A DNA stretch of 64,000 nt from an uncultured Rhodocyclaceae bacterium. Lineage in GTDB: Bacteria > Pseudomonadota > Gammaproteobacteria > Burkholderiales > Rhodocyclaceae. The position numbers and the translations under genes were made by a program. The notes under the pieces were generated by a model. It was not told where the DNA came from and did not search any database. It worked only from the letters and a program-made list of their open reading frames with translations. The stretch covers positions 124,001 through 188,000 of the forward strand of contig CAJQTY010000002.1 in the NCBI GenBank assembly GCA_907163075.1. The letters are read 5' to 3'. Shown here piece after piece: positions 4,814-15,266 of the stretch. The stretch's first letter is position 1. The number at the start of each line of letters is the position of its first letter.

Positions 4814-4889
4814 TGGAGCGGGAGAAGAGTCTCGAACTCTCGACCTATACCTTGGCAAGGTATCGCTCTACCAACTGAGCTACTCCCGC
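4814..4889 (-). tRNA. tRNA-Gly (anticodon GCC), left copy
   Basis: A 76-nt tRNA with encoded CCA; the acceptor stem starts GCGGGAG, the anticodon loop TTGCCAA gives GCC, and the T arm reads GAGTTCGAGACTC. It appears identical to the copy at 15191-15266. The two lie on opposite sides of the integrated element, so the ancestral order was Gly-Cys-Gly-Leu. Confidence 0.95.
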
Positions 4890-4895
4890 AAAACC

Positions 4896-4943
4896 CTGGA
4901 GGCGCGAGCCGGAGTCGAACCGACCTACACGGATTTGCAATCC
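4896..4943 (-). repeat. Left attachment site: 3' fragment of tRNA-Cys
   Basis: This stretch matches 15048-15095 over 48 bp and contains the tRNA-Cys sequence from the anticodon arm to the CCA end. The sequence then diverges, so the 5' part of the tRNA is missing here. It is the displaced host copy left by site-specific integration. Confidence 0.93.
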
Positions 4944-5293
4944 TCCTAAAGGGCTTGGAGCCCTTGGAACGAGGCGCATTGTATGGGATGCCGTTGGATA
5001 TGTAAAGCTCACCGGATGATTAATCCGAAATATTTGACCCTTTTTTTGGCATATTTCTTCGAAAGAAAGATGCCTATTTTTACGTCATATTTTGCTTAGA
5101 ATATGGGCATCGTAGAATCTCACCAAGCCGGCGTCTTGCGCGTTCTGAAAACCGAATAAATGAAAGGTGGCTGCGGCGCCACCCCCCGCGCGCCCGGAGA
5201 GGCCCAGCCTCATAGGATGACCGATATGAAGCCCGGTGAGGATTAAGGCTGTAACCTAACGCGGCGGCCGATGCACTCGACACCCTGCACGTC
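4944..5293. other. Gene-free left end of the island
   Basis: No convincing reading frame is present in these 350 bp. Next to the attachment site is a small inverted repeat (GGGCTTGGAGCCC, about 4951-4963), then an AT-rich stretch (about 5020-5110), then a GC-rich part with a perfect 6-bp hairpin (GGTGGC at 5166-5171 and GCCACC at 5178-5183). The part from about 5190 onward may belong to the same structured RNA or DNA as the repeat that follows, because it contains further short pairings such as AGCC/GGCT around 5228-5252. Confidence 0.5.
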
Positions 5294-5388
5294 CGCCGTG
5301 CAGCCTGCACCGGCCCATGGGAATGAAGTGCAGTGGCCATGCAAGGACGATGCACCTGGCTAAGCTATGGGCGGTTACTCTCGCCTAG
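5294..5388. repeat. Structured tandem repeat, copy A
   Basis: A 95-bp unit about 90 percent identical by eye to copy B at 5445-5540; the last 37 bases are identical. It holds the palindrome CCCATGGG, an arm GTGCAGTGGCC with a degraded partner, and a GGCG/CGCC hairpin with an 8-nt loop. Copy A has lost part of the long stem that is perfect in copy B. No gene covers it. The strand of any transcript is unknown. Confidence 0.75.
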
Positions 5389-5444
5389 TATTGCCCCCGT
5401 TGAGCTGTTCAAAGCCAGCCCCAGGAGGGAGCGCCCCGCACGGT

Positions 5445-5540
5445 CGCCGTGCAGCATGTACCGTCCCATGGGAAGGAAGTGCAGTGGCCAACGCAAGGCC
5501 ACTGCACCTGGCTAAGCTATGGGCGGTTACTCTCGCCTAG
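5445..5540. repeat. Structured tandem repeat, copy B
   Basis: It contains a perfect 11-bp stem (GTGCAGTGGCC and GGCCACTGCAC around a 7-nt loop) and a second helix CACCTGGCTA (5505-5514) pairing with TAGCCAGGTG (5538-5547) that encloses the GGCG/CGCC hairpin. A further GCACGG/CCGTGC stem lies at its left edge. It ends 16 bp downstream of the capsid stop codon, so it would be in the 3' end of the capsid message. Candidates are a noncoding RNA, a packaging or cleavage site, or a transcript terminator; none is proven. Confidence 0.75.
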
Positions 5541-5556
5541 CCAGGTGTTCTTGCTA

Positions 5557-7362
5557 TCAGGAAGTCAGCGCGTCTTTGATGGCGGCAAAGCTGGCTGCAC
5601 GGCGGACGCCAATGTCACAATCCAAAAGGGCGACTACACGGAATCCGCCGCTAGTTGCCAAGCTGTACTGGTCTACAAGGATGTCCAGAGCGCCCCAGTG
5701 ACCGACAACCAGGTCGGCCCAATTTCCAATAACTATTGAAGAGCAAACGCTGCCGGATGACCCCTTGACCAGATTGCTCGGGACATTGTTGCTCGAAGCT
5801 GCCCGGTAGCCATTGATGCGGCCGAATCCGGCTTCGTCGCCGGTCGACGAGTCCCACACAAAGCCCGCGCCGGAGTCTGTTGATGCCTTTGTCGTCCCTT
5901 TTAGCTTGCGGCGAACCTTGGGATTCGTGATGTAGCCAACACTGCCGACGTCGGCGTTGACAGTCGCCAGCGCTTCCTCAAGCGCCAGCATATGCGCCCA
6001 GGTGGGAGCCCCGCCATCGGTTCCAATGGTCACGTTGCCGATGCCCGTTGTATTGAGCACGCCCAGCGGTTCAGCGCCAGAACCGGAACCGTTGATCGCT
6101 GTGCGGTCGAGTTCCACGGCTATGATGCTGGCTAAGTCACGCCGCACCAAATTTTCAATATCCGGAGAGGCTTGGAGTACCATTTTCCGCGTGTAATCAG
6201 TCCATCCCCCGATTGTTTTCGGCTCCAACAGGACTTGGCCAAAAGCCATACCGCTTTCCGTGGGCGAACTGCCCTCGGCAACCCAGTACGCGGTTCCGGA
6301 ACTGACTTGGCTTGGAATGGATAACTGGCCGCGCAAGTCGTGAATCTGCGTTGCGCCCATGGCAATAACCAGTGCTCTCTTGCGTAGCAGATCAATAAAC
6401 CCTTCAGCAAGATGCTCTGTTGGCCTGAGGTAGCCGCCAGTGGACGGCGTTCCAACGGCCAAATCACGAGACATCATGACCTCAGGCGGGACAAATATGC
6501 CCTGAGGCTCGCGCCCGATCTTCGCAGCGACCGCCCGCGAAGCTTCCATTTCAAACCCGGCGTAACGCTGGCCCCAGGAGGGATCAAGCTTGGCTTGAAT
6601 GGCCTTTACAAAACTGAACTGCCCAGCCTCGTGCTGGGTCAGGCCGATTTCAGGCGACTCGGAGACGCGGATCGCGCCATTGCCTTTGATGTTGCTGAGC
6701 ACAAATTTACGGAACCGCTCGACATTGGTTCCGTGCTCGTCCATAAAATCAATCACCTGACGAGTGGGAATTTTGAATTGCACGGCCGTCGCTAGAATTT
6801 CTTTGGTGTTGTCGCGGTTTTCTTCGTCAACATGGCTTAATGCCCGGCGCTGCGATCGGCTCATGTTGTTTCCAGAGGCTTGTTCTTGATTGGTTTCCAT
6901 GGGGTTTCCTTCATTAAATGAGCGGCCGATGCCGACAGTCACGTCGGCAGGAACGGACACAAGGGATACTTCGTAGGGCATCCAGCGACTGACAAGGTAG
7001 TCTTTGCCTTTCGCCGTGCCAGTGATGATTTGATAGCCGACGCTGGTATTGCGCAGCACGCCGGCCTGTACGTCTTTCCACACCTCCAGGGCGCGCTGGC
7101 TGGCGCCAAAGCGTAGAACTCCGCGAAGCTTTCCGCCTGAGACGCGAAGGTTCTCAACGATGGCAACGGGGGTCTCGGAACTATTGTGCGAGGTGAGTAC
7201 GGGCAGCGGACTGCGGGACAGATCAATAGCGCCGGGCGCGTGCGACAGAATCTCGTTGCCAACGCCATTGCGAAAGTATGGCGTTTCGCTCGATAGACTG
7301 GCTTCGACGGTGCGGTCAGCATCGTTGGGGTTTTCGAGCTGTAGTGCTCGGTAATGAAGCAT
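5557..7362 (-). CDS. Prohead protease fused to HK97-type major capsid protein
   Basis: A 601-residue fusion. Residues about 1-150 are an HK97-type (S78-like) prohead protease with a plausible triad His59 (LTSHNS), Ser107 (RNTSVGYQI) and Glu131 (WMPYEVSLVSVPAD). A linker from about 150 to 230 (rich in Q, N and charged residues) would be the scaffolding/delta domain. The rest is the HK97 capsid fold, with GGYLRPTEHLAEGFIDLLR, TAYWVAEGSSPTESGMAFGQ and DRTAINGSGSGAEPLGVLN. The frame is open to 7434 from a TTG; ATG at 7362 is preferred because GAGG lies 9 bases upstream and the sequence MLHYRALQLENP then matches the usual protease N-terminus; ATG at 7368 is possible. It appears complete and intact. 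No portal or large terminase gene accompanies it. Confidence 0.9.
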   Translation of the reverse strand: MLHYRALQLENPNDADRTVEASLSSETPYFRNGVGNEILSHAPGAIDLSRSPLPVLTSHNSSETPVAIVENLRVSGGKLRGVLRFGASQRALEVWKDVQAGVLRNTSVGYQIITGTAKGKDYLVSRWMPYEVSLVSVPADVTVGIGRSFNEGNPMETNQEQASGNNMSRSQRRALSHVDEENRDNTKEILATAVQFKIPTRQVIDFMDEHGTNVERFRKFVLSNIKGNGAIRVSESPEIGLTQHEAGQFSFVKAIQAKLDPSWGQRYAGFEMEASRAVAAKIGREPQGIFVPPEVMMSRDLAVGTPSTGGYLRPTEHLAEGFIDLLRKRALVIAMGATQIHDLRGQLSIPSQVSSGTAYWVAEGSSPTESGMAFGQVLLEPKTIGGWTDYTRKMVLQASPDIENLVRRDLASIIAVELDRTAINGSGSGAEPLGVLNTTGIGNVTIGTDGGAPTWAHMLALEEALATVNADVGSVGYITNPKVRRKLKGTTKASTDSGAGFVWDSSTGDEAGFGRINGYRAASSNNVPSNLVKGSSGSVCSSIVIGNWADLVVGHWGALDILVDQYSLATSGGFRVVALLDCDIGVRRAASFAAIKDALTS

Positions 7363-7572
7363 GAGCATGTTCCTCAACATGCCGGCCCGCAAAGAAAAAA
7401 GCGCGGTTCCGGCCAGTGAATAAACCGCCTCCAAGGAGGCAACTTTTTCACGTTTTTACCAGACACGCGCTTTGCGGTGCTCCTGCATTCCGGATCATCA
7501 ACCAGCACAGAGGCAAGCGCGAAGCTATTGGACCTTGTTGGTAGTTCTCGACGGAAGCTCAAACGTTGATGA

Positions 7573-7601
7573 ACTACAACAGGAAACGGGGCGGGTGTCA
7601 A
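7573..7601 (-). promoter_or_regulatory. Sigma-70-type promoter for the capsid gene
   Basis: A consensus -35 TTGACA is followed after exactly 17 bp by TGTAGT. It lies about 210 bp upstream of the capsid start, leaving a long leader. A GTTG/CAAC dyad overlaps the -10 region and could be an operator. The reading of this site as a promoter is by eye. Confidence 0.5.
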
Positions 7602-7612
7602 GAGAAAATTAT

Positions 7613-7798
7613 TCACGGTCGGCGGTTTGCTGGTCGACAGGTTCGCGTGGCGTGGTCGGTCATAACATCTATGAACCGCATTGCGGCGATGGCGCCACGG
7701 GCATAAGCGATGACCTGGCCGACACTGGTTAGGTCATCGGCCCTCGGGTCGATTTGCCGGGTATCGATAACCCGTTGGAGGTGGATTAATCCGTGCAA
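7613..7798 (-). CDS. Small hypothetical protein (61 aa)
   Basis: A possible 61-residue protein starting at a TTG, 24 bp after the small-terminase-like gene. Its composition is protein-like (LTSVGQVIAYARGAIAAMRFIDVMTDHA, two amphipathic helices). An ATGA overlap links it to a further 80-codon frame (7616-7374), but that frame covers the promoter TTGACA and has little protein character. No family is recognised. It could equally be a non-coding leader. Confidence 0.4.
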   Translation of the reverse strand: MHGLIHLQRVIDTRQIDPRADDLTSVGQVIAYARGAIAAMRFIDVMTDHATRTCRPANRRP

Positions 7799-7822
7799 GG
7801 CTAATTACCCGCAGGCCCCTCT

Positions 7823-8482
7823 TCAATCTCCACGCGCGAGGGCAGCGCGATACTCGTCAAAACCACTATTCATATCTTTTTCGAGCGCGGCATCGAGCAA
7901 AGCAAAAGTTTCCGCTAACCCCTTTTCACTTGCCACGTTGCGCGCGTGGTCAAGGAATCCAAGATCGCGATTCAGTCCTTTTTCGAGCGCGACATCGAGC
8001 CAACCAAGAATTGCCGCGAGACTCTCCCCAGGTGGAAGGCGGACGAGGTCGGCCCACTCGGCCAGCAAGCGCTTCTTGAACTGATCGAGCAACTGTGACA
8101 GATCGGAAGCGCTTGTTTCGAAGAATTCGGCATCTTCGGCGGCCGCCGCGGCGGCAGCGGCAAGCTTCGATATTTTTGCGGCCTGGCGCTGCAATTCGGA
8201 AACCAAAGGCGCTAGGACTTTCGACCGTAGCCGCGAGGGGTCGCCGGTACGAAGCAATTGCGCGACCGCCTGGCGAGGATCTAGGCGGCCATCTGCACCA
8301 AGGGTAACGCGGCCTGATTTCACCCATTCTGTGACCGCTTGCTTGCTGCACCCCATGATCCGCGAAAATTCCGCGCGGGTCACTCGGATGCCGGCTTTTT
8401 CCATCTCGCTTGACTCGAAGCCCAAAGAAAGTGTTTGTGGCACTTGCCGTGCTTTGCAGTCAGAATCAATGTAATTTGTCAT
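7823..8482 (-). CDS. Terminase small-subunit-like / HTH protein
   Basis: A 219-residue protein. The N-terminal third is a helix-turn-helix of the Nu1 type (VTRAEFSRIMGCSKQAVTEW, about residues 34-53, then a DPRQAVAQLL segment), as in small terminase subunits that recognise packaging DNA. Then comes a coiled-coil-like, Ala-rich helix (about 95-118) and a C-terminal helical region with two near-repeats (LDVALEKGLNRDLGFLDHAR and LLDAALEKDMNSGFDEYRAA). The start is uncertain: 8482 lacks a clear ribosome site and Met27 (8404) is an alternative. A phage regulator with the same HTH is the main alternative function. No large terminase gene is present. Confidence 0.62.
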   Translation of the reverse strand: MTNYIDSDCKARQVPQTLSLGFESSEMEKAGIRVTRAEFSRIMGCSKQAVTEWVKSGRVTLGADGRLDPRQAVAQLLRTGDPSRLRSKVLAPLVSELQRQAAKISKLAAAAAAAAEDAEFFETSASDLSQLLDQFKKRLLAEWADLVRLPPGESLAAILGWLDVALEKGLNRDLGFLDHARNVASEKGLAETFALLDAALEKDMNSGFDEYRAALARGD

Positions 8483-8542
8483 ATAGTCATCTATCAGTTG
8501 TCTATGTTTAGTTGCCAGTGCCTAGGGGATCAACGCGGTGCG

Positions 8543-8704
8543 AATTACCCGCAGGGGAGAGTTGCGGGGAGGACCCGTCGATGGTTTGGGTTTGCGGGTG
8601 ATGCGGGTAATGGCGGGGTACTTTCAGCCCATATATATATTTTTGTCTCTGACACTTTCCACGCCTTGTAGGGAAGTTATCCGCAATTACCCGCATCACC
8701 CGCA
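8543..8704. other. Candidate replication origin with 9-bp iterons
   Basis: The motif TGCGGGTRA occurs twice in tandem at 8593-8610 (plus strand) and twice in tandem in the opposite orientation at 8687-8704, forming a perfect 19-bp inverted repeat (8593-8611 and 8686-8704) with a 74-bp spacer. A fifth copy is at 8545-8553 (inverted) and a sixth at 7805-7813. The spacer includes an AT-rich run (8631-8645). The right arm overlaps the stop codon of the helicase gene. Iterons plus an AT-rich segment beside a replicative helicase gene are the hallmark of plasmid and satellite origins; function here is inferred. Confidence 0.6.
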
Positions 8705-10204
8705 TTTGACGATGCTCCACCTGAGGACTTTGGCGTGCCCATCCGTTCCTGACTGGCGTAGTTGCAAGCCGTCGACGATCCGTTCACGATGCGCCCGCAG
8801 CCAGTAGCCGAGTCGTCTGCTGTTTGGTTTCTCGGCACAGACCAATTGCAGTGCATCCCGTAGGTCGGCATTGATGTAGTCGCTGCTCATCGGTGTTGTT
8901 GCCATGCCAGCAGTGACGACATCGGCCACGGTGGTGGGGATGCTGGCGAACGAGGCGTACCAGGACGAGAACAGCAGGCGCATGGCCTCGATATCCGGGT
9001 CTTGGTCGCGCAATCCTTCGGAAGCTTCCAGCGGATCGGGAAGGCCGATCCAGACCAGCGGACGACGAACCATACGGTCCCATATCTCGAACCCGCCAAG
9101 CGCGTGAAGGCCGGCTATCTTTGGCGCGCCAGACCTCAGGTAAGAGAGTGTGAGAGTAAGCGCGGCCGTGATGATCTCGCCCCGACGTTCCGACACGGTG
9201 GCGAGGTGGTCGGTATCGAACGTGCGTTGCTCCGGGCGTTCGATACCGGAGTCGAGTCGGACCAGCACCACGCGGCGCTTGAGGTCGCCAACGATCGACA
9301 GATTGTTGCCGGTCGCCACCAGCAAGGCATGCGTTGGAATGCTCAGCATGCCCGATCCGCCCAGCGGACGCAGCCTGACGAATTGTTGCGTAGTTACCTG
9401 GCACAGCAAATCACCCTTGAGCGGACGTTCGATGTTGTCGATTGAAATAACCGCATCGCCGGCCAGCAGAACGCCGGTAAGTCGCTTCTCTGTTTCCGCG
9501 TCATCATGACCAAGGCTTAGCACACTGGCGCGGCGATCCGTGGCAAGTATCGCCAGCGTTTCACACAACAGCGTTTTCCCGGTCCCCGGTGTTGGGGACG
9601 TAATGGCAAACATGGGCGCGGCCGGTAGCATGCGGCGCATCATGGCGGTCAGGACGCCGGCCAGCATCGCCGCGCGGTCGGATTCGTCAACGAAGGGGAA
9701 GGAGTCAAACAGCCCGCACAATATTGCCAGAGCCTGCTCAGCGTCAATTTTGGAGGGTTTGAGCGGCGGCCGTTGATAACCGGCAATCGTCGCATACGCC
9801 GCAAAAAGACCTGTTTCGGCGTCGTAGCCGGGTTGATCGATCAACCGAGCTGCCGGCGTGATCGTGGGGCCCTCGACAAACCCGGTCAGCGGCGGCAATT
9901 CCGGCCAGTGGCCGCGCGCCAGATAGCAGTCAGCCGCCCGCCTCGGCATGTCGCACGGCACGAACTGCATCGAGCGGGAATCCCATTTTTCATGGATCGC
10001 GGCGCGGCCGGCCAATTCGACCAGATGGGCCGGTTCAACCGGATGAACCATCAAGGCGCCAGCAGGTCGGCAAACATCACCGCTCGTGGCCTCGCTGGCC
10101 TGATAGACGCGTGCCAGGCGGCCGGCATAGCGGTATAGATTGGCCTTGGCGTCAGCCAATGCCGAGCCTATCAAGTCAATGATATTCGGGAGCTCACCCG
10201 CTAA

Positions 10205-11394
10205 GGAGACTCTGATCAAGTCAGGACATGGCTGAGCTGAGCGGGGATAATTTCGGTATTGCACCGAGATGAGCGAGAAATCGATGAAGCAACTGAGTCT
10301 GGCCGAAACGGGATTTCTGCCGAAGCGTGGCAAGGTGACGCGCAAGGCTGAGTTTCTTGCGGAGATGAACGCGGTGGTGCCGTGGTTTCGGCTCGAAGGC
10401 CTGATTGAACCGGTTTATCCGAAGGCTGGTCGTGGCCGCCGTCCGATGCCTCTGTCGGTGATGTTGCGGATTCACTTTATGCAGCACTGGTTTGGCTACT
10501 CGGACCCGGCAATGGAAGAAGCGCTGCATGACATTCCGCTCTTGCGCCAGTTCGCTGGCTTGGACGCCTTTGAGGATACGATCCCGGACGAGACAACGAT
10601 CCTGAAGTTCCGCCATCTTCTTGAAGCTAATGCACTGGCGGTCGCGCTGTTTGCCGAGGTCAATGCGGTGCTGTCGGAGAAAGGCCTTTCGTTGCGACAC
10701 GGCACGGCGGTCGACGCCACGCTCATTGCCGCGCCGAGTTCGACCAAGAATAAGGACGGCAAGCGCGACCCCGAGATGCATCAGACCAAGAAAGGCAATC
10801 AGTGGCATTTCGGAATGAAAGCGCACATCGGCGTCGATGCCGATTCAGGCCTGGTTCATACGGTGATTGGCACGGCAGCGAACGTTAATGACGTGACCCA
10901 AGCCAATGCCTTGCTGCATGGTGAGGAGGAAGAGGCGTTCGGCGACGCGGGCTATCAAGGCGCCGAGAAACGCCCTGACGCCACGGGCAAGGCGCGCTGG
11001 AACGTCGCCATGCGTCCGGGGAAGCGTCGCGTGCTCGACAAGAGCCTGAAATCAACGACGCTCATCGAGCAACTTGAACATCTCAAGGCCAGCATCCGCG
11101 CCAAGGTTGAACATCCGTTCCGCGTCATCAAGCGCCAGTTCGGATTCACGAAAGTTCGCTATCGCGGCCTGGCCAAGAATACCGCGGCGTTGATGACGCT
11201 CTTCGCCTTATCAAATCTCTGGATGGCTCGGCGGCGATTGTTGGCGATGACACCCGAGGTGTGCCCATGAAACGGGATACACGGAAGTTCATGCGAAAAC
11301 CGCCGCCAAACCGCCTCGTTTTACGAATCAGCTGCTCTTGCTGTTGCGTTCTGACACCGATGCTCAGCTTTGGCGGCAGTTGTTCAGACCATCC
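10205..11394 (+). mobile_element. IS5-family insertion sequence
   Basis: A 1190-bp element with imperfect terminal inverted repeats (left GGAGACTCTGATCAAGT, right end complement GGATGGTCTGAACAACT) and a 4-bp target duplication CTAA at 10201-10204 and 11395-11398. CTAA fits the YTAR target of the IS5 subgroup. It is the only plus-strand coding unit in the island. Confidence 0.93.
10269..11270 (+). CDS. IS5-family transposase
   Basis: A 333-residue DDE transposase, full length for the IS5 subgroup. Visible landmarks are the N-terminal DUF772-type domain (MLRIHFMQHWFGYSDPAMEE, about residues 66-85), the first catalytic Asp in HGTAVDATLIAAPSS (about 150), the second in FGDAGYQGAEKR (about 226) and the Glu in KVEHPFRVIKRQFGF (about 290). 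It appears intact and could still be mobile. It lies inside the split helicase gene in the opposite direction. Confidence 0.95.
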   Translation: MSEKSMKQLSLAETGFLPKRGKVTRKAEFLAEMNAVVPWFRLEGLIEPVYPKAGRGRRPMPLSVMLRIHFMQHWFGYSDPAMEEALHDIPLLRQFAGLDAFEDTIPDETTILKFRHLLEANALAVALFAEVNAVLSEKGLSLRHGTAVDATLIAAPSSTKNKDGKRDPEMHQTKKGNQWHFGMKAHIGVDADSGLVHTVIGTAANVNDVTQANALLHGEEEEAFGDAGYQGAEKRPDATGKARWNVAMRPGKRRVLDKSLKSTTLIEQLEHLKASIRAKVEHPFRVIKRQFGFTKVRYRGLAKNTAALMTLFALSNLWMARRRLLAMTPEVCP

Positions 11395-11523
11395 CTAAGT
11401 GCCGAATAACCGGCCGGCCCGTTGAATCGTAGCTGCCGGTGGATTTCTGCGACGGGGGCCGGCGTCCGCCCTTGCCGGTTTTCGCCAGTTTCTCGGCGGC
11501 TTTTTCCAGTGAGGTGACGTTAT

Positions 11524-11943
11524 TCATAGGCCAGCCCCATTTGCCGCGCCCCGGATGCGTTCAGCGGCGACCAGTAGGCGCTCCCTATCTACCGAACCGA
11601 GCGGTTGACCAGAGGCCAGGGACGAAGCGGAAGCGGCAACTACCAGGCACTCGAAGGCAACGCAGCGCAAGGCGTCACTAGCGGCGAACGGCCGGCGTTC
11701 ACCCGGTTTTCTTATCTCGGCGCGTTCGGGGAAAAGATCGGTCATTTCCAGGCCGACGGCGGCCAGGATGTCGGCCACGCTATCGCCGGCAAAGTCATGG
11801 ATCAGCAAGCGGCCATCGTCAAGCTCTCGGGCGCTGCCCGATGGGCGTTTGTCTTTCCGGGTAGGAACGCGAAATATCCAGCGCCCGGCGCCAGTCTGTT
11901 TCACTCCGTCGACGAGGGATAGGAATTTTTCCGCGGGGGTCAT
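11524..11943 (-). CDS. Primase zinc-domain-like protein without zinc ligands
   Basis: A 139-residue protein that resembles the N-terminal domain of phage primases: GAGRWIFRVPTRKDKRPSGS followed by ELDDGRLLIHDFAGDSVADI and LEMTDLFPER (about residues 18-73). In related proteins I know, this layout carries a CPAH and a HCFAGC motif that bind zinc; here the corresponding positions are VPTR and HDFAGD, so the metal site is absent. The C-terminal half is helical (AFECLVVAASASSLASG). It overlaps the helicase start by ATGA, so the two are translationally coupled and probably act together in replication. Confidence 0.7.
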   Translation of the reverse strand: MTPAEKFLSLVDGVKQTGAGRWIFRVPTRKDKRPSGSARELDDGRLLIHDFAGDSVADILAAVGLEMTDLFPERAEIRKPGERRPFAASDALRCVAFECLVVAASASSLASGQPLGSVDRERLLVAAERIRGAANGAGL

Positions 11944-12257
11944 AGGATGCCTCCAGGCGCAGATATCAGCGGTACGCCAGTTTCAGGATCCAGGACCGTC
12001 AACCAGAGTCCGTGACGCAAATGAAACTTAATCCCGCGCCAGGTAACCGAGCGCTTCGTGGAATACGCGGCGGCCCGCGCCAGGTCTACAAGCGGAGTAT
12101 TTTCACGCATCGAAAACGATGACCTTTGCCGCGCTATCGATTCGGCGCGAAGTTCGGCCAGCAGTCTTTGCCGTGTGAATGTTGCGGGTTTCCTTCGTGG
12201 TTTGCCTGGCTTTTTCACGCCGGTCTTGATCGTCAGTTTGATGATCTTGGCGGTCAT
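11940..12257 (-). CDS. Hypothetical protein (105 aa)
   Basis: A basic 105-residue protein. The N-terminal 30 residues are rich in Lys and Arg, followed by a helical segment (RQRLLAELRAESIARQRSSF) and a C-terminal beta-rich part (VTWRGIKFHLRHGLWLTVLDPETGVPLIS). The family is not recognised. It overlaps both neighbours by ATGA, which supports it being a real gene of the replication operon; a nucleic-acid-binding role is only suggested by charge. Confidence 0.65.
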   Translation of the reverse strand: MTAKIIKLTIKTGVKKPGKPRRKPATFTRQRLLAELRAESIARQRSSFSMRENTPLVDLARAAAYSTKRSVTWRGIKFHLRHGLWLTVLDPETGVPLISAPGGIL

Positions 12258-12403
12258 TTAAGGCACCGTTTCCAGGTGCGTTTCACGTGACGATTGAGCC
12301 GGCTTGGCTTCGTTCCTTCGGCGCGTTCTTCGAGACAACATGGCGCTTTGGCGTGCTCTGGTTTGTGGCGCGGAGCGTGGCGGCTCTTTCCTTTGCTTGT
12401 CAT
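12254..12403 (-). CDS. Small basic protein (49 aa) in coupled operon
   Basis: A 49-codon gene found from its overlaps: its ATG lies in the ATGA that ends the upstream gene and its TGA lies in the ATGA that starts the next one. The product is strongly basic (many Lys, Arg and His) with one Cys-Cys pair (APCCLEE). A longer version of the same frame, up to 12595, would overlap the upstream gene heavily and is not preferred. No family is recognised. Confidence 0.5.
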   Translation of the reverse strand: MTSKGKSRHAPRHKPEHAKAPCCLEERAEGTKPSRLNRHVKRTWKRCLK

Positions 12404-12636
12404 TGCCAACCGCCGCTCACCTGGTTTGCGACAACGCGCTGATACTCGGTCCAGAATCTGGTCCGATGCAGAAACAAATGTGTGCCGACTTTTGCCATCG
12501 CACCAGCTTCGATCAGCTCGCGCTGAATCGGCTTGGTGTGGTAGTGCAATAACTTGTCGGAATTGAATACGGGCTGACCGTATTCTCGAAACCACGTTTT
12601 AAGTGGTAGAAAATCAGACGGCTTTGTGTTTTCCAT
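12400..12636 (-). CDS. Small phage-type DNA-binding/regulatory protein (78 aa)
   Basis: A 78-residue protein with the pattern FLPLKTWFREYGQPVFNSDK, then IQRELIEAGAMAKVGTHLFL and RTRFWTEYQRVV. I recognise this layout from small proteins of integrated phage-like elements that behave as excisionase or AlpA-like regulators (winged-helix size and spacing); the assignment is by resemblance only. It has a good ribosome site (AAGGA, 6 bases before ATG) and is first in the chain of ATGA-coupled genes, so it may control the replication operon. Confidence 0.65.
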   Translation of the reverse strand: MENTKPSDFLPLKTWFREYGQPVFNSDKLLHYHTKPIQRELIEAGAMAKVGTHLFLHRTRFWTEYQRVVANQVSGGWQ

Positions 12637-12641
12637 TGCGT

Positions 12642-12688
12642 ATCCTTAAAGGTAGCGTCCGGCTTGGCGGGCTGGGACGATTAAGGAT
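12642..12688. promoter_or_regulatory. Inverted repeat upstream of the replication operon
   Basis: ATCCTTAA (12642-12649) and TTAAGGAT (12681-12688) form a perfect 8-bp inverted repeat across the leader of the first gene of the chain; the left arm contains the ribosome site. It could be an operator or an RNA switch that hides the ribosome site. Evidence is the symmetry alone. Confidence 0.35.
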
Positions 12689-12727
12689 AAGAACGGGCTT
12701 CAAAACCCTATAACAGAGTGAAGGCTT

Positions 12728-13261
12728 TTACTTTGCAATACCCGGAACGTCGTTACTGAAGGCTGAAAGGAAGCGCCGAACGGCGTCTTCTTTCGTCTCT
12801 TTGGACCCATCCCAGCCAGCTATAAACAAAGCGTGCGCTGAGGCCTCGCTGAAGCGTTCTTCTTCAAGTATCAGATCGTCGAGAAGGCGCTTAAGCGTTC
12901 GCTCCCGGTCGGGAATCCGGCCCCCATCAAAACTAGCCTCTAGTTTGTCCAATGCCTCGGCGTAGAAGATTTTGCCGTCAATGACTTCGCGCGCAATCTC
13001 CCTTTGTGGCGATCGAAAACCAAAATCCTCTGCCTTGTATTGCGTGTTTTTTCGTTTTGGCGTTTTCAGAATCCTGCGCCCCTCAGCTGAGTCCGCAAGC
13101 CTGGCCAAAACCAAGGACGCAACCAGCGCATCGTCCAGACTAATGGCGATCGGCTCCTTGCTGAAAACCGCTGTTTGAACCGATGCAATGAATCGTGCGA
13201 TGCACTCGTTCGCCCCGCCGCTTTCTATCAATCTAACGGCTTCAAGAATGTTCAGTCCCAT
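12728..13261 (-). CDS. Hypothetical protein (177 aa)
   Basis: A 177-residue acidic, mostly helical protein of unknown function. The start at 13261 is chosen for the ribosome site AAGGGG just upstream; the frame is open 12 codons further. The N-terminal part (LNILEAVRLIESGGANECIARFIASVQ) and the C-terminal part (ILEEERFSEASAHALFIAGW) look amphipathic. No membrane segment or known motif is seen. It stands between the RadC-like gene and the replication operon, separated from the latter by a leader of about 90 bp. Confidence 0.6.
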   Translation of the reverse strand: MGLNILEAVRLIESGGANECIARFIASVQTAVFSKEPIAISLDDALVASLVLARLADSAEGRRILKTPKRKNTQYKAEDFGFRSPQREIAREVIDGKIFYAEALDKLEASFDGGRIPDRERTLKRLLDDLILEEERFSEASAHALFIAGWDGSKETKEDAVRRFLSAFSNDVPGIAK

Positions 13262-13359
13262 TTCGCACCCCTTCTGGTGCCCTTCAGTAGGTGCCACCCC
13301 CAGGCGGTGAAGGATTCCGCTTTTCGCCTGGCCGGGCTAGGGAGTGGCGTATCAGTAGC

Positions 13360-13886
13360 TTACAACAAGCCTCTTTCAAAAAACGATACCGGCATGGCGT
13401 TTCCGCAAACAATGAAATGATCAAGCAACTTGACGTCGACAAGAGCAAGCGCGGCTTTCAGTCCTTTTGTCAAACGCTCGTCCTCCAGGCTTGGGGTGGG
13501 GGCCCTGATGGGTGGTTGTGAGAAAAAACTACGGCGGACGCGTTGTGTTTCAAGGCTGCTTTTATCACCTCGCGCGGGTAGACGCTTGTTTGTGTGAGCG
13601 TTCCAGTAAACATGCGGTCAAAAGCGATGACGTGATTCTGTGCGTCGATCCAGATGGCGTGAAACTCCTCGTGCTCAAGGGCGGCGAGTTTAAGTTTGAG
13701 GTAGGCCCGAATGGCGCCGGGGGTGCTCACAGCCTCGGTGCAGTAGACGGCGCTCTGCTCCAAGAGCACGGTCGCCCGCTCCACGGCCAAACGAACCCGT
13801 TTGTCCATCCGATAAAAACAGCTTGGCGCCCCAATTTCTACCGGTGGCGGGGTGATGACTTTTTTTGGTCTTCCGCTAGTCGCCAT
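13360..13886 (-). pseudogene. RadC-like JAB/MPN domain gene with a frameshift
   Basis: Codons from 13886 encode a RadC C-terminal domain: EFHAIWIDAQNHVIAFDRMF, TSVYPREVIKAALKHNASAV and the metal motif FSHNHPSG. The frame then shifts at about 13503-13505, reading PPPQAWRTSV and a stop. In the next frame the family sequence resumes: LEDERLTKGLKAALALVDVK, then LLDHFIVCGNAMPVSFFERG and a stop at 13360. One extra G in the GGG/CCC run would join them to give 175 residues. The Asp that completes the metal site (in LEDERL) lies after the break. RadC-like proteins are common in mobile islands. A sequencing error is the alternative. Confidence 0.82.
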
Positions 13887-14079
13887 TGCAAACCCTCCGC
13901 CCTGAGAAGGTGGGGTTGACGGTATTGGCGCGGTCTTTTCGCTCCGCGCCGGCCATTTGCTGCCAATGGTGGAAAACGGTTTCCATTTGATAGAGGTCGG
14001 CGTCTGACAACTGGCGCATATCGTCGCCGGTCATTCGGTTGCGCAGAAGCGCAATGGCTTGTTGTGCGGTGTTTTCCAT
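13876..14079 (-). CDS. Hypothetical protein (67 aa)
   Basis: A 67-residue protein with an N-terminal helix (MENTAQQAIALLRNRMTGDD) and a second helix (SDADLYQMETVFHHWQQMAG). It starts 9 bp after the integrase stop with GAGGG upstream of the ATG, and its end overlaps the RadC-like start by 11 bp, consistent with one transcript. No family is recognised. Confidence 0.55.
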   Translation of the reverse strand: MENTAQQAIALLRNRMTGDDMRQLSDADLYQMETVFHHWQQMAGAERKDRANTVNPTFSGRRVCNGD

Positions 14080-14088
14080 GAGCCACCC

Positions 14089-14973
14089 TCACGCAAACAC
14101 GTTGTTGATGGTACTGGCGCGGCCCTTGATGCACAGATGGCTATAGCGGCGCGTCATGGTCAATGAACGGTGTCCGGCGTGTTCGGCGATGGCGAGGATA
14201 TCCACGCCCGCTTGAGCGAGCCGCGAGCAGCTCGTGTGGCGCAGGGTGTGGAACGACACGCCCTCGAGGCTGGCGGTCCTGCACGCTTCGCTAAAGCCAT
14301 GCCGGAAATCATGCGGCCGATTGCGATACTTGCCAGAAAAGATCAATTCGCCGTCCTCGCTCTTGATACGCCGCATCCGCCGGAACTCTTGAACGAGATC
14401 AGGCGTAATCGGGGATACGTGGGAATCGCCGTTCTTGGTGCGCTCTACAGCCACGTGAGGCGCGTCACCATCGAGCACCACATCACGCCAGCACAGCGAC
14501 AGTAGCGCCCCTCGACGCAAGCCGGTGACGATGGCCAGACGGATCAGCAGGGGCAACAGCACCCAGGACTGCAAGCGGGCGGCATCCATGAGGCGCCGTT
14601 CTTCGTCCGGCGTCAGGAAACGCAGCTTGCCGGGGTTTTCCTTGTGTTGTGGAATGTCTTGCAGTGGAGAAACCCAGCCGCGCGGTAGAAGGCGCTTCTG
14701 CTTGGCAAAGCGGATAGCCGACTGCAACGCCATCCGGTAACGGTTCACGGTGGGGCCGGATTTTACCTTGCCGTTCTTGCCGGGGCTGGTTTCCAGTTCG
14801 GCCAATCCGGCGTCAATGTCGTCCGGCGTTAACTCAGCCAGCGGCTTGGTGCCGAATCGCTCGACCCAGAATGACAGGCGGGGCCGAATCATCGTGTCCC
14901 GCATCGGAGTCAACGACAAAAAGACAGCGGCAATTTCTGCGACTGTCTGGGGGCTGTGGTACTCAGTTTTCAT
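14089..14973 (-). CDS. Tyrosine recombinase (island integrase)
   Basis: A 294-residue phage-type integrase. The N-terminal SAM-like core-binding domain covers about residues 8-105. The catalytic residues are all visible: Arg153 (TGLRRGALLSL), His242 and Arg245 (FHTLRHT), His268 (HAGHRSL) and Tyr277 (MTRRYSHL). The gene lies 75 bp from the right attachment site, the usual position, and would catalyse integration into tRNA-Cys and, with a directionality factor, excision. An AATCCG/CGGATT inverted repeat next to a T/A run lies in the space between gene and site (about 14991-15005) and may bind the integrase or a repressor. Confidence 0.93.
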   Translation of the reverse strand: MKTEYHSPQTVAEIAAVFLSLTPMRDTMIRPRLSFWVERFGTKPLAELTPDDIDAGLAELETSPGKNGKVKSGPTVNRYRMALQSAIRFAKQKRLLPRGWVSPLQDIPQHKENPGKLRFLTPDEERRLMDAARLQSWVLLPLLIRLAIVTGLRRGALLSLCWRDVVLDGDAPHVAVERTKNGDSHVSPITPDLVQEFRRMRRIKSEDGELIFSGKYRNRPHDFRHGFSEACRTASLEGVSFHTLRHTSCSRLAQAGVDILAIAEHAGHRSLTMTRRYSHLCIKGRASTINNVFA

Positions 14974-15047
14974 GTGGGCATCCCTTAAATCCGCTACGGA
15001 TTAAAAAAATGTCCCAAGTGGCCGCCAAGCCTTGCTAATACTTGTTT

Positions 15048-15095
15048 CTGGAGGCGCGAGCCGGAGTCGAACCGACCTACACGGATTTGCAATCC
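15048..15095 (-). repeat. Right attachment site within tRNA-Cys
   Basis: The 48 bases match 4896-4943. They form the 3' part of the intact tRNA-Cys, which shows that the element carries a copy of the tRNA 3' end that keeps the gene functional after integration. Confidence 0.93.
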
Positions 15096-15122
15096 GGTGC
15101 ATAACCGCTTTGCTATCGCGCC
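15049..15122 (-). tRNA. tRNA-Cys (anticodon GCA)
   Basis: A 74-nt tRNA with encoded CCA. The acceptor GGCGCGA pairs with TCGCGCC, the anticodon loop TTGCAAA gives GCA, and the T arm reads GGTTCGACTCC. It is intact; its 3' half is supplied by the island's attachment sequence. Confidence 0.95.
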
Positions 15123-15190: not shown

Positions 15191-15266
15191 TGGAGCGGGA
15201 GAAGAGTCTCGAACTCTCGACCTATACCTTGGCAAGGTATCGCTCTACCAACTGAGCTACTCCCGC
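15191..15266 (-). tRNA. tRNA-Gly (anticodon GCC), right copy
   Basis: A 76-nt tRNA that appears identical to the left copy at 4814-4889. It follows pgsA by about 90 bp, the position of glyW in the conserved uvrC-pgsA-tRNA arrangement. Confidence 0.95.

Follow-up and report, generated by a model that had tools for sequence, protein, structure and literature searches.

A candidate capsid-carrying phage satellite lineage of about 9 kb, resembling Gram-negative PICIs, in tRNA genes of Rhodocyclaceae and other bacteria

The DNA analysed here, called the window throughout, is a stretch of 64,000 nucleotides from an uncultured Rhodocyclaceae bacterium (contig CAJQTY010000002.1, positions 124,001 to 188,000), and between its positions 4896 and 15095 lies an island that carries a phage capsid gene and is examined as a candidate phage satellite. 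The island is framed by an exact direct repeat of 48 nt, whose copies (the attachment, or att, sites) lie at the distal end (4896..4943) and at 15048..15095, within the tRNA-Cys(gca) gene that is the integration target (15049..15122, minus strand, identified by ARAGORN and Rfam). Beside the tRNA gene a tyrosine integrase of 294 aa is encoded on the minus strand (14089..14973, PF00589 6e-27), and a terminal integrase with att in a tRNA gene is a trait of Gram-negative phage-inducible chromosomal islands (PICIs). Towards the other end, also on the minus strand, follow a cos-like site of the lambda type (8508..8580, with GGGTCCTCCC at 8567-8576), the gene of a small-terminase-like protein (TerS; 219 aa, 7823..8482, phrog_57 3e-10) and that of a prohead protease/major capsid protein (MCP) fusion of about 601 aa, counted from the ATG at 7362 (5557..7362). 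The uninterrupted reading frame of the latter (5557-7434) matches phrog_617 over residues 28-622 (2.5e-129) and PF05065 (1e-33); its protease half matches PHROG protease and protease-head families and falls below the curated Pfam and NCBIfam cut-offs (PF04586, E 0.014; TIGR01543, E 2e-6, 28 of 59 bits).

An initial annotation, made from the letters alone, had listed the att duplication in tRNA-Cys, the terminal integrase, the TerS-like protein and the protease-capsid fusion, and all four were recovered. It had also listed portal, large terminase (TerL), tail and lysis genes as missing, and no family match to any of these was found among the ten window open reading frames (ORFs) scanned with Pfam and PHROGs or the nine scanned with NCBIfam, part of the small ORFs lying outside the scan. 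Two of its statements stand in part: the size of 10.2 kb agrees with the att spacing of this copy (10152 bp), which includes an IS5 element of 1205 bp, and becomes about 8.95 kb once that element is subtracted, while the genes described for the island do all lie on the minus strand, with the IS5 transposase on the opposite one.

Relatives of the capsid gene were sought in several collections. The MCP query had matches in 13 of 198 relatives (E 0.001), 14 of 399 genomes of the order (1e-60), 3 of 369 genomes of the class, 6 of 398 genomes of the phylum (1e-80) and 15 of 249 genomes of the family (1e-60), each of these counts including the window's own genome and the samples overlapping in part. 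GTDB contigs gave seven loci, IMG/VR was queried in four runs, with the best 80 matches kept in three, and 137 plasmid records matched, the best at 35% identity among the 15 matches listed. A scan of viral contigs with the single window protein returned no match, whereas alignment queries did find relatives. In total 13 distinct elements share the window-type capsid, namely the window copy and 12 islands or fragments, with portal and TerL absent in all. Labelled by fetched locus (L) and genome (G), the 12 are G106 (L021), G057/L028, G092/L030, Thauera sp. 28 (L029), a Hydrogenophilales metagenome-assembled genome (MAG; L031), a Gammaproteobacteria MAG (L033), L035, G435 (L039), G618 (L059), L061, L062 and L077.

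A common layout recurs across hosts, in G106 (a one-contig genome), Thauera sp. 28, the Hydrogenophilales MAG and G618, as well as on fragments and on two IMG/VR contigs that include both att ends. Both att ends, with a repeat identity of 90-100%, were found in seven of the 13 elements; the spacing in the six relatives is 8834, 8936, 8888, 8953, 9085 and 7875 bp, and the seven two-ended islands measure 7.9-9.1 kb (the window without its IS), six of them 8.8-9.1 kb. Their targets are genes for tRNA-Cys, Val, Thr, Asn, Arg, Gly and Leu. The remaining elements are fragments, except for L035, which is a contig of 8764 bp without att repeats, and L031 has a third, weaker copy of its att repeat farther out. 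The annotation had proposed to look for islands of the same gene order in related genomes, and the relatives found bear it out: other genera keep about 9 kb, an integrase, a replicase, a TerS (unclear in one) and the protease-capsid gene, in tRNA genes and with portal and TerL absent. In some satellites the capsid gene is followed by a gene for a short tape-measure-like protein (415 and 460 aa), for a neck or minor-tail protein, or for both kinds (L059:8282-10098, L062:6878-8260, L029:11974-12861); these proteins would perhaps shape tails or disturb helper tail assembly.

To place this absence of head genes we used a portal profile over the 315 loci with an MCP match, several of which are copies of one place. 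A portal was found in 231 loci and in none of the satellite loci, and a TerL profile likewise gave nothing in the satellite loci. In the phages the portal gene stands directly upstream of the MCP gene, at a median distance of 159 bp and no farther than 1.5 kb away in 207 of 231. In 43 further loci the upstream sequence is too short, and the remaining 41, with at least 1.5 kb of it, are portal-free; they comprise 12 satellite loci (10 distinct elements) and 29 non-satellite loci. Those of the 29 that were examined at length look like phage contigs in which tail genes surround the MCP, or are excerpts: the wider stretch of L151 and L152 has a portal, and L159, L161 and L163 represent a class B island; most of the others are 4-kb excerpts.

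Among the MCP matches listed, all relatives of at least about 49% identity to the window are satellites or satellite fragments, and portal-bearing relatives reach at most 46%; close homologues running into portal and terminase genes, named beforehand as the pattern that would mark a deletion derivative, were not seen among them. This bears on the possibility that the island is a decayed prophage, or such a derivative, that kept its capsid gene by chance. The window copy has features that suit this, namely its IS5 element, its split replicase and its truncated RadC gene, but the relatives, which live in several bacterial orders, are equally reduced, and portal and TerL are absent from the whole group. 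As the annotation had argued, the island does not look simply like a decayed prophage, since no relative of similar identity with a more complete set of phage genes was found and 12 further reduced islands or fragments were, and we regard decay as highly improbable.

Identity alone cannot sort satellites from phages because two satellites, L059 and L077, have MCPs that share no more than 42-43% identity with that of the window; the separation rests on a quick maximum-likelihood tree. In this tree one branch (SH-aLRT 97, the one support measure used) divides the 12 satellite MCPs entered from 70 portal-phage MCPs, none of 500 label shuffles gave a value as low for the grouping, and the nearest portal phage is L265. 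The phages entered are 70 of the 72 that remained from 192 after dereplication at 60%, and the partial MCP of L024/L030 and the portal-less non-satellite loci were left out. The simplest reading would be that the satellite MCPs descend from a phage capsid gene captured once, long ago. The ratio of nonsynonymous to synonymous substitution rates (dN/dS) is 0.15-0.37 in 28 of 28 pairs among eight satellite MCPs, many of them with dS above 1, and is 0.24 and 0.19 in the least saturated pairs (L031/L061 and L061/L035). Judged by these ratios, the protease-capsid gene is under purifying selection in the relatives.

The cos-like site is also shared. In nine members (the window, L021, L029, L031, L033, L035 with two sites, L061, L062 and L077) TerS is preceded, at roughly 60-120 nt, by a core with 0-2 mismatches to GGGTCCTTCC, and L059 has a cos-like site upstream of its MCP gene. 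The lambda cos junction carries the same core with one mismatch; in phages of the set it is present, at one mismatch or fewer, within 1.5 kb before TerL in 23 of the 61 with enough sequence, and as background it occurs 0.017 times per kb and strand. TerS itself is of several types among the satellites, and integrases and replicases are of several kinds. The TerS proteins of G106, L031 and L035 are 52-65% identical to those of four Rhodocyclaceae-family prophages (L165-L168), which share with the satellites both TerS and a cos-like site (seen in L165, L167 and L168) and differ in having their own TerL and portal. Compared with the MCPs of G106 and the window, those of L165, L166 and L168 show 37-42% identity, and G1333, the genome of L165, shares its genus code with G106. 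Other phages of the phrog_617 type, such as RcRhea, VP882 and S-LBS1, likewise have their own TerL and portal, with a capsid protein homologous over nearly its full length at 31-36% identity (40 of 96 records listed). Beside TerS we observed a protein of about 97 aa in L031, L021 and L061, and by eye also in L035 and L029, and another small protein family in L062 and L077, by eye also in L033; neither was recognised in the window.

Such likeness to potential helpers makes room for a different role of the capsid protein, in which it interferes inside helper capsids, shrinking or poisoning them. The precedent is Ccm of SaPIbov5, a satellite-coded capsid homologue placed at the pentamers of helper capsids (available excerpts of PMC8569155 and PMC6893505), and SaPIbov5 also resembles the present elements in its helper-type cos site. 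A satellite without a portal needs the helper portal for assembly, and mixing of its MCP with that of the helper is conceivable because the identity of 37-42% to helper-like prophages exceeds the 23% given for Ccm and the helper capsid in the excerpts of PMC6893505. However, the present satellites retain a protease fused to a full-length MCP, whereas no protease is identified for SaPIbov5 in the accessible part of PMC8569155. A further difference from SaPIbov5 is the TerS of the present elements. We consider interference of this kind possible, if doubtful.

Conserved RNA sequences flank the capsid gene. Its leader (7363..7545, minus strand) holds the box GCTTCGCGCTTGC at 7513-7525, followed by a long terminator-like hairpin with a U-run. 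With at most one mismatch allowed, all 11 distinct satellites whose upstream sequence is long enough have the box, some 160-240 nt upstream of the matched MCP region, as does 1 of 229 portal loci, one more having it at two mismatches. A longer exact pattern occurs in 3 of the 198 relatives, always at the capsid leader, and in 19 IMG/VR stretches, of which three are known satellites; the other 16 were discarded as chance or coding occurrences, with no match to the capsid, portal or TerL reference proteins near the pattern and nine of them inside one related phage gene. Most of nine folded leaders form the long hairpin and then the U-run just before the gene, with z from -0.6 (L062) and -1.8 (L031) to -5.1 (L029). 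Covariation in the MAFFT-based fold is weak (term -0.02; double changes in 5 of 15 pairs), so the structure rests on the single-sequence folds, and the hairpin may gate capsid expression. The L028 leader had no match in E. coli, and the idea of a P4 Ash/Icd-type leader was dropped after a Pfam scan of two leader ORFs returned no family.

Downstream of the MCP gene lies a second element (5470..5548, minus strand), defined by GCGAGAG...CCATAGC and a covarying stem. It is present twice in the window, the second copy (5275..5400, minus strand) not forming the outer stem and not folding (z +1.4), and also in L021 and L024/L030; a variant with GCGAGAC in L031 and L061 was noticed only through a targeted look after their MCP genes, and the full pattern occurs in no further fetched locus apart from those of a different capsid type described below. 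Both sides of the stem change in 10 of 11 pairs among five distinct sequences, which none of 500 shuffles reached, the stem having been defined from the same sequences as were used for the count. Rfam recognised neither RNA element in the window, nor did it do so above the gathering scores in 13 scanned loci (L059, L062 and L077 being outside the scan).

The 3' element also follows the different MCP of L350 and L351, which with L349 form a second set of capsid islands in the same bacterial family, with an MCP lacking the fused protease (L350:9105-19525, L351, L349:2817-11546). L350 lies in a tRNA-Cys gene and has a cos-like site; the copies of its exact 45-nt repeat are spaced 10376 bp. In L349 the MCP gene is accompanied by a TerS of the window type (about 40% identity over 139 aa), and an att repeat was not found for this island.

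These flanks and the selection on the gene bear on whether the capsid gene matters to the satellite at all. It could be a captured late gene of little role, with satellite concatemers going into normal helper heads: PICI capsid genes are described as dispensable for transfer, with full-length heads, in excerpts of PMC10111431 and PMC6092414, and the short tape-measure and neck genes of some satellites fit late-gene capture. Yet a single MCP lineage runs through the 12 tree members with dN/dS below 0.4, and the conserved leader, the 3' element in some members and the narrow island size weigh against a mere bystander. A bystander role appears disfavoured by this selection and these flanks, and we think it unlikely.

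Among known systems the closest in plan are the Gram-negative PICIs, the published accounts of which were available in part. They are ordered as integration, a zone of small genes and RNAs, replication and a late zone (PMC10111431), and PmCI172 and EcCICFT073, like the present islands, have a terminal integrase, genes in one direction and replication followed by a late zone; many lie in tRNA genes, sometimes with TerS and often with a lone capsid gene. Such a gene is carried by 21 of 29 reference elements (PMC10111431), and the PmCI172 of Pasteurella multocida has a capsid homologue with small heads seen (PMC6092414); for want of tools, this lone capsid received no genetic test in the parts available (PMC6092414, PMC10111431). 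Differences lie in size (10-20 kb stated against about 9 kb here), in hosts (Enterobacteriaceae and Pasteurellaceae against Rhodocyclales and other groups) and in the capsid, that of the E. coli element 11capE belonging to the lambda E family (PMC10111431) and the present one to the phrog_617-type protease-MCP fusions. Unlike Gram-negative PICIs, the present lineage has its own leader and 3' RNA elements, and AlpA is recognised in some members only (PF05930 above cut-off in L059, HTH_17 in L059 and L077, a sub-threshold signal in L035). The island is probably related in plan to the Gram-negative PICIs, as far as gene content tells. The annotation had proposed a smaller satellite class that borrows its portal, motor and tail; relatives of about 9 kb without portal or TerL, with their MCPs in one tree group, agree with this, but the class is not wholly new, since a capsid gene standing alone is already frequent among Gram-negative PICIs.

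Capsid-forming PICIs (cfPICIs) also carry a portal, TerL and connectors. The present elements resemble them in having their own capsid protein and, to go by their genes, in depending on a helper; portal and TerL, absent from the island and the satellite loci, set them apart, and on this ground we rejected an identity with cfPICIs as that class is known. A literature search, with most subscription journals outside its coverage, found no satellite of this capsid group.

On balance we consider it rather likely that the island represents a phage satellite of the Gram-negative PICI type in its integrated state, and that it is part of a separate lineage that carries a capsid gene. The basis, drawn by comparison, consists of the tRNA integration, the replication protein, the cos-like site with its TerS-like protein, the selection on the capsid gene, the RNA sequences and the absence of portal and TerL. 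Several points weigh on the other side. Particles, helper and capsid size are predictions from the genes, and the E. coli model PICI transfers without a capsid gene, in full-size heads (excerpts of PMC10111431 and PMC6092414). No AlpA-like protein was recognised in the Pfam scan of the window ORFs, 7 of the 12 satellite stretches gave no match to the 3' element, L059 has no clear TerS, and the size of about 9 kb is not absolute, because L077 measures only 7.9 kb. Among the fetched loci, the TerS proteins of the window, L029, L062 and L033 had no match in a portal-bearing phage. In the window's own genome neither a PF04860 portal (with positive controls in four genomes) nor a relative of the L165 portal (in a search that lacked a positive control) was found, so no resident helper was recognised.

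Since portal and packaging motor are absent, satellites of this kind probably must borrow them, with the tail, from a helper phage. Growth of the helper would lead to excision and replication of the satellite, whose TerS would bring the satellite cos to the helper TerL. The satellite protease-MCP would assemble on the helper portal, alone or mixed with helper MCP, and the resulting small shell could hold one genome of about 9 kb, the helper supplying motor, portal and most or all of the neck and tail. The capsid leader would probably hold back capsid synthesis until the late phase. Capsids of T=7 hold about 40 kb and those of T=4 about 15-17 kb; on this scaling a genome of about 9 kb would suit a shell of about T=3, whereas several satellites are reported to form the larger T=4. 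More tentatively, we envisage hybrid particles in which a shell of about T=3, made of satellite protease-MCP alone, sits on a helper portal and is filled through the helper TerL by means of a swapped, helper-matched cos and TerS, with synthesis gated by the leader and a second conserved RNA closing the gene; in this full form the proposal is possible rather than probable.

Lone capsid genes recur in many Gram-negative PICIs, and here such a gene is kept by one lineage in which integrase, replicase and TerS types differ. The member in Thauera sp. 28, presumably an isolate, as its record does not call itself a MAG, makes the question of the capsid's role testable, and TerS and cos point to candidate helpers. 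The lineage also adds two RNA elements, not found in Rfam, that are tied to satellite capsid genes.

The window copy itself is probably defective, because an IS5 element splits its replication gene and its RadC gene is truncated; with the replication gene split, it is probably incapable of replicating alone. The IS5 element (10198..11402, plus strand, transposase NF033581) was delimited against two other full-length copies in the same genome (G000 C1:2150222-2151426 and C3:476492-477690), and its insertion looks recent, since both are 100% identical as printed. It lies between a primase N-terminal piece (11524..11943, minus strand, phrog_6088 9e-07) and a primase/helicase C-terminal piece (8696..10197, minus strand, phrog_29234 3e-120, profile positions 359-863). 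The two pieces do not meet in the family profiles, so replicase sequence beside IS5 may have been partly lost. The annotated helicase with iterons was confirmed for the enzyme; the tandem repeats are weak, and in their place we found the cos-like site and, adjoining the replicase, an inverted repeat (8593..8704, minus strand) with 31-nt arms, 87% complementary (8593-8623 / 8674-8704), which is a candidate replication origin.

Between replicase and integrase, all on the minus strand, lie ORFs of 105 aa (11940..12257), 78 aa (12400..12636, also without an AlpA match), 189 aa (12728..13297) and 67 aa (13876..14079, function unassigned), none with a Pfam or PHROGs family, and the RadC-like gene (13470..13886), which matches PF04002 as annotated, though over profile positions 2-78 of 121 only. 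An int-alpA RNA (RF02996) was observed in this interval in two members, the window (13280..13347, minus strand, 57.8 bits against a gathering score of 35.8) and the Thauera island (L029:6087-6155); the literature, as far as available, puts PICI immunity RNAs at this position. Outside the att sites the island is flanked by two tRNA-Gly genes (4814-4889 and 15191-15266), 99% alike over 80 nt, which could be a tandem pair native to the site or else offer another target for recombination.

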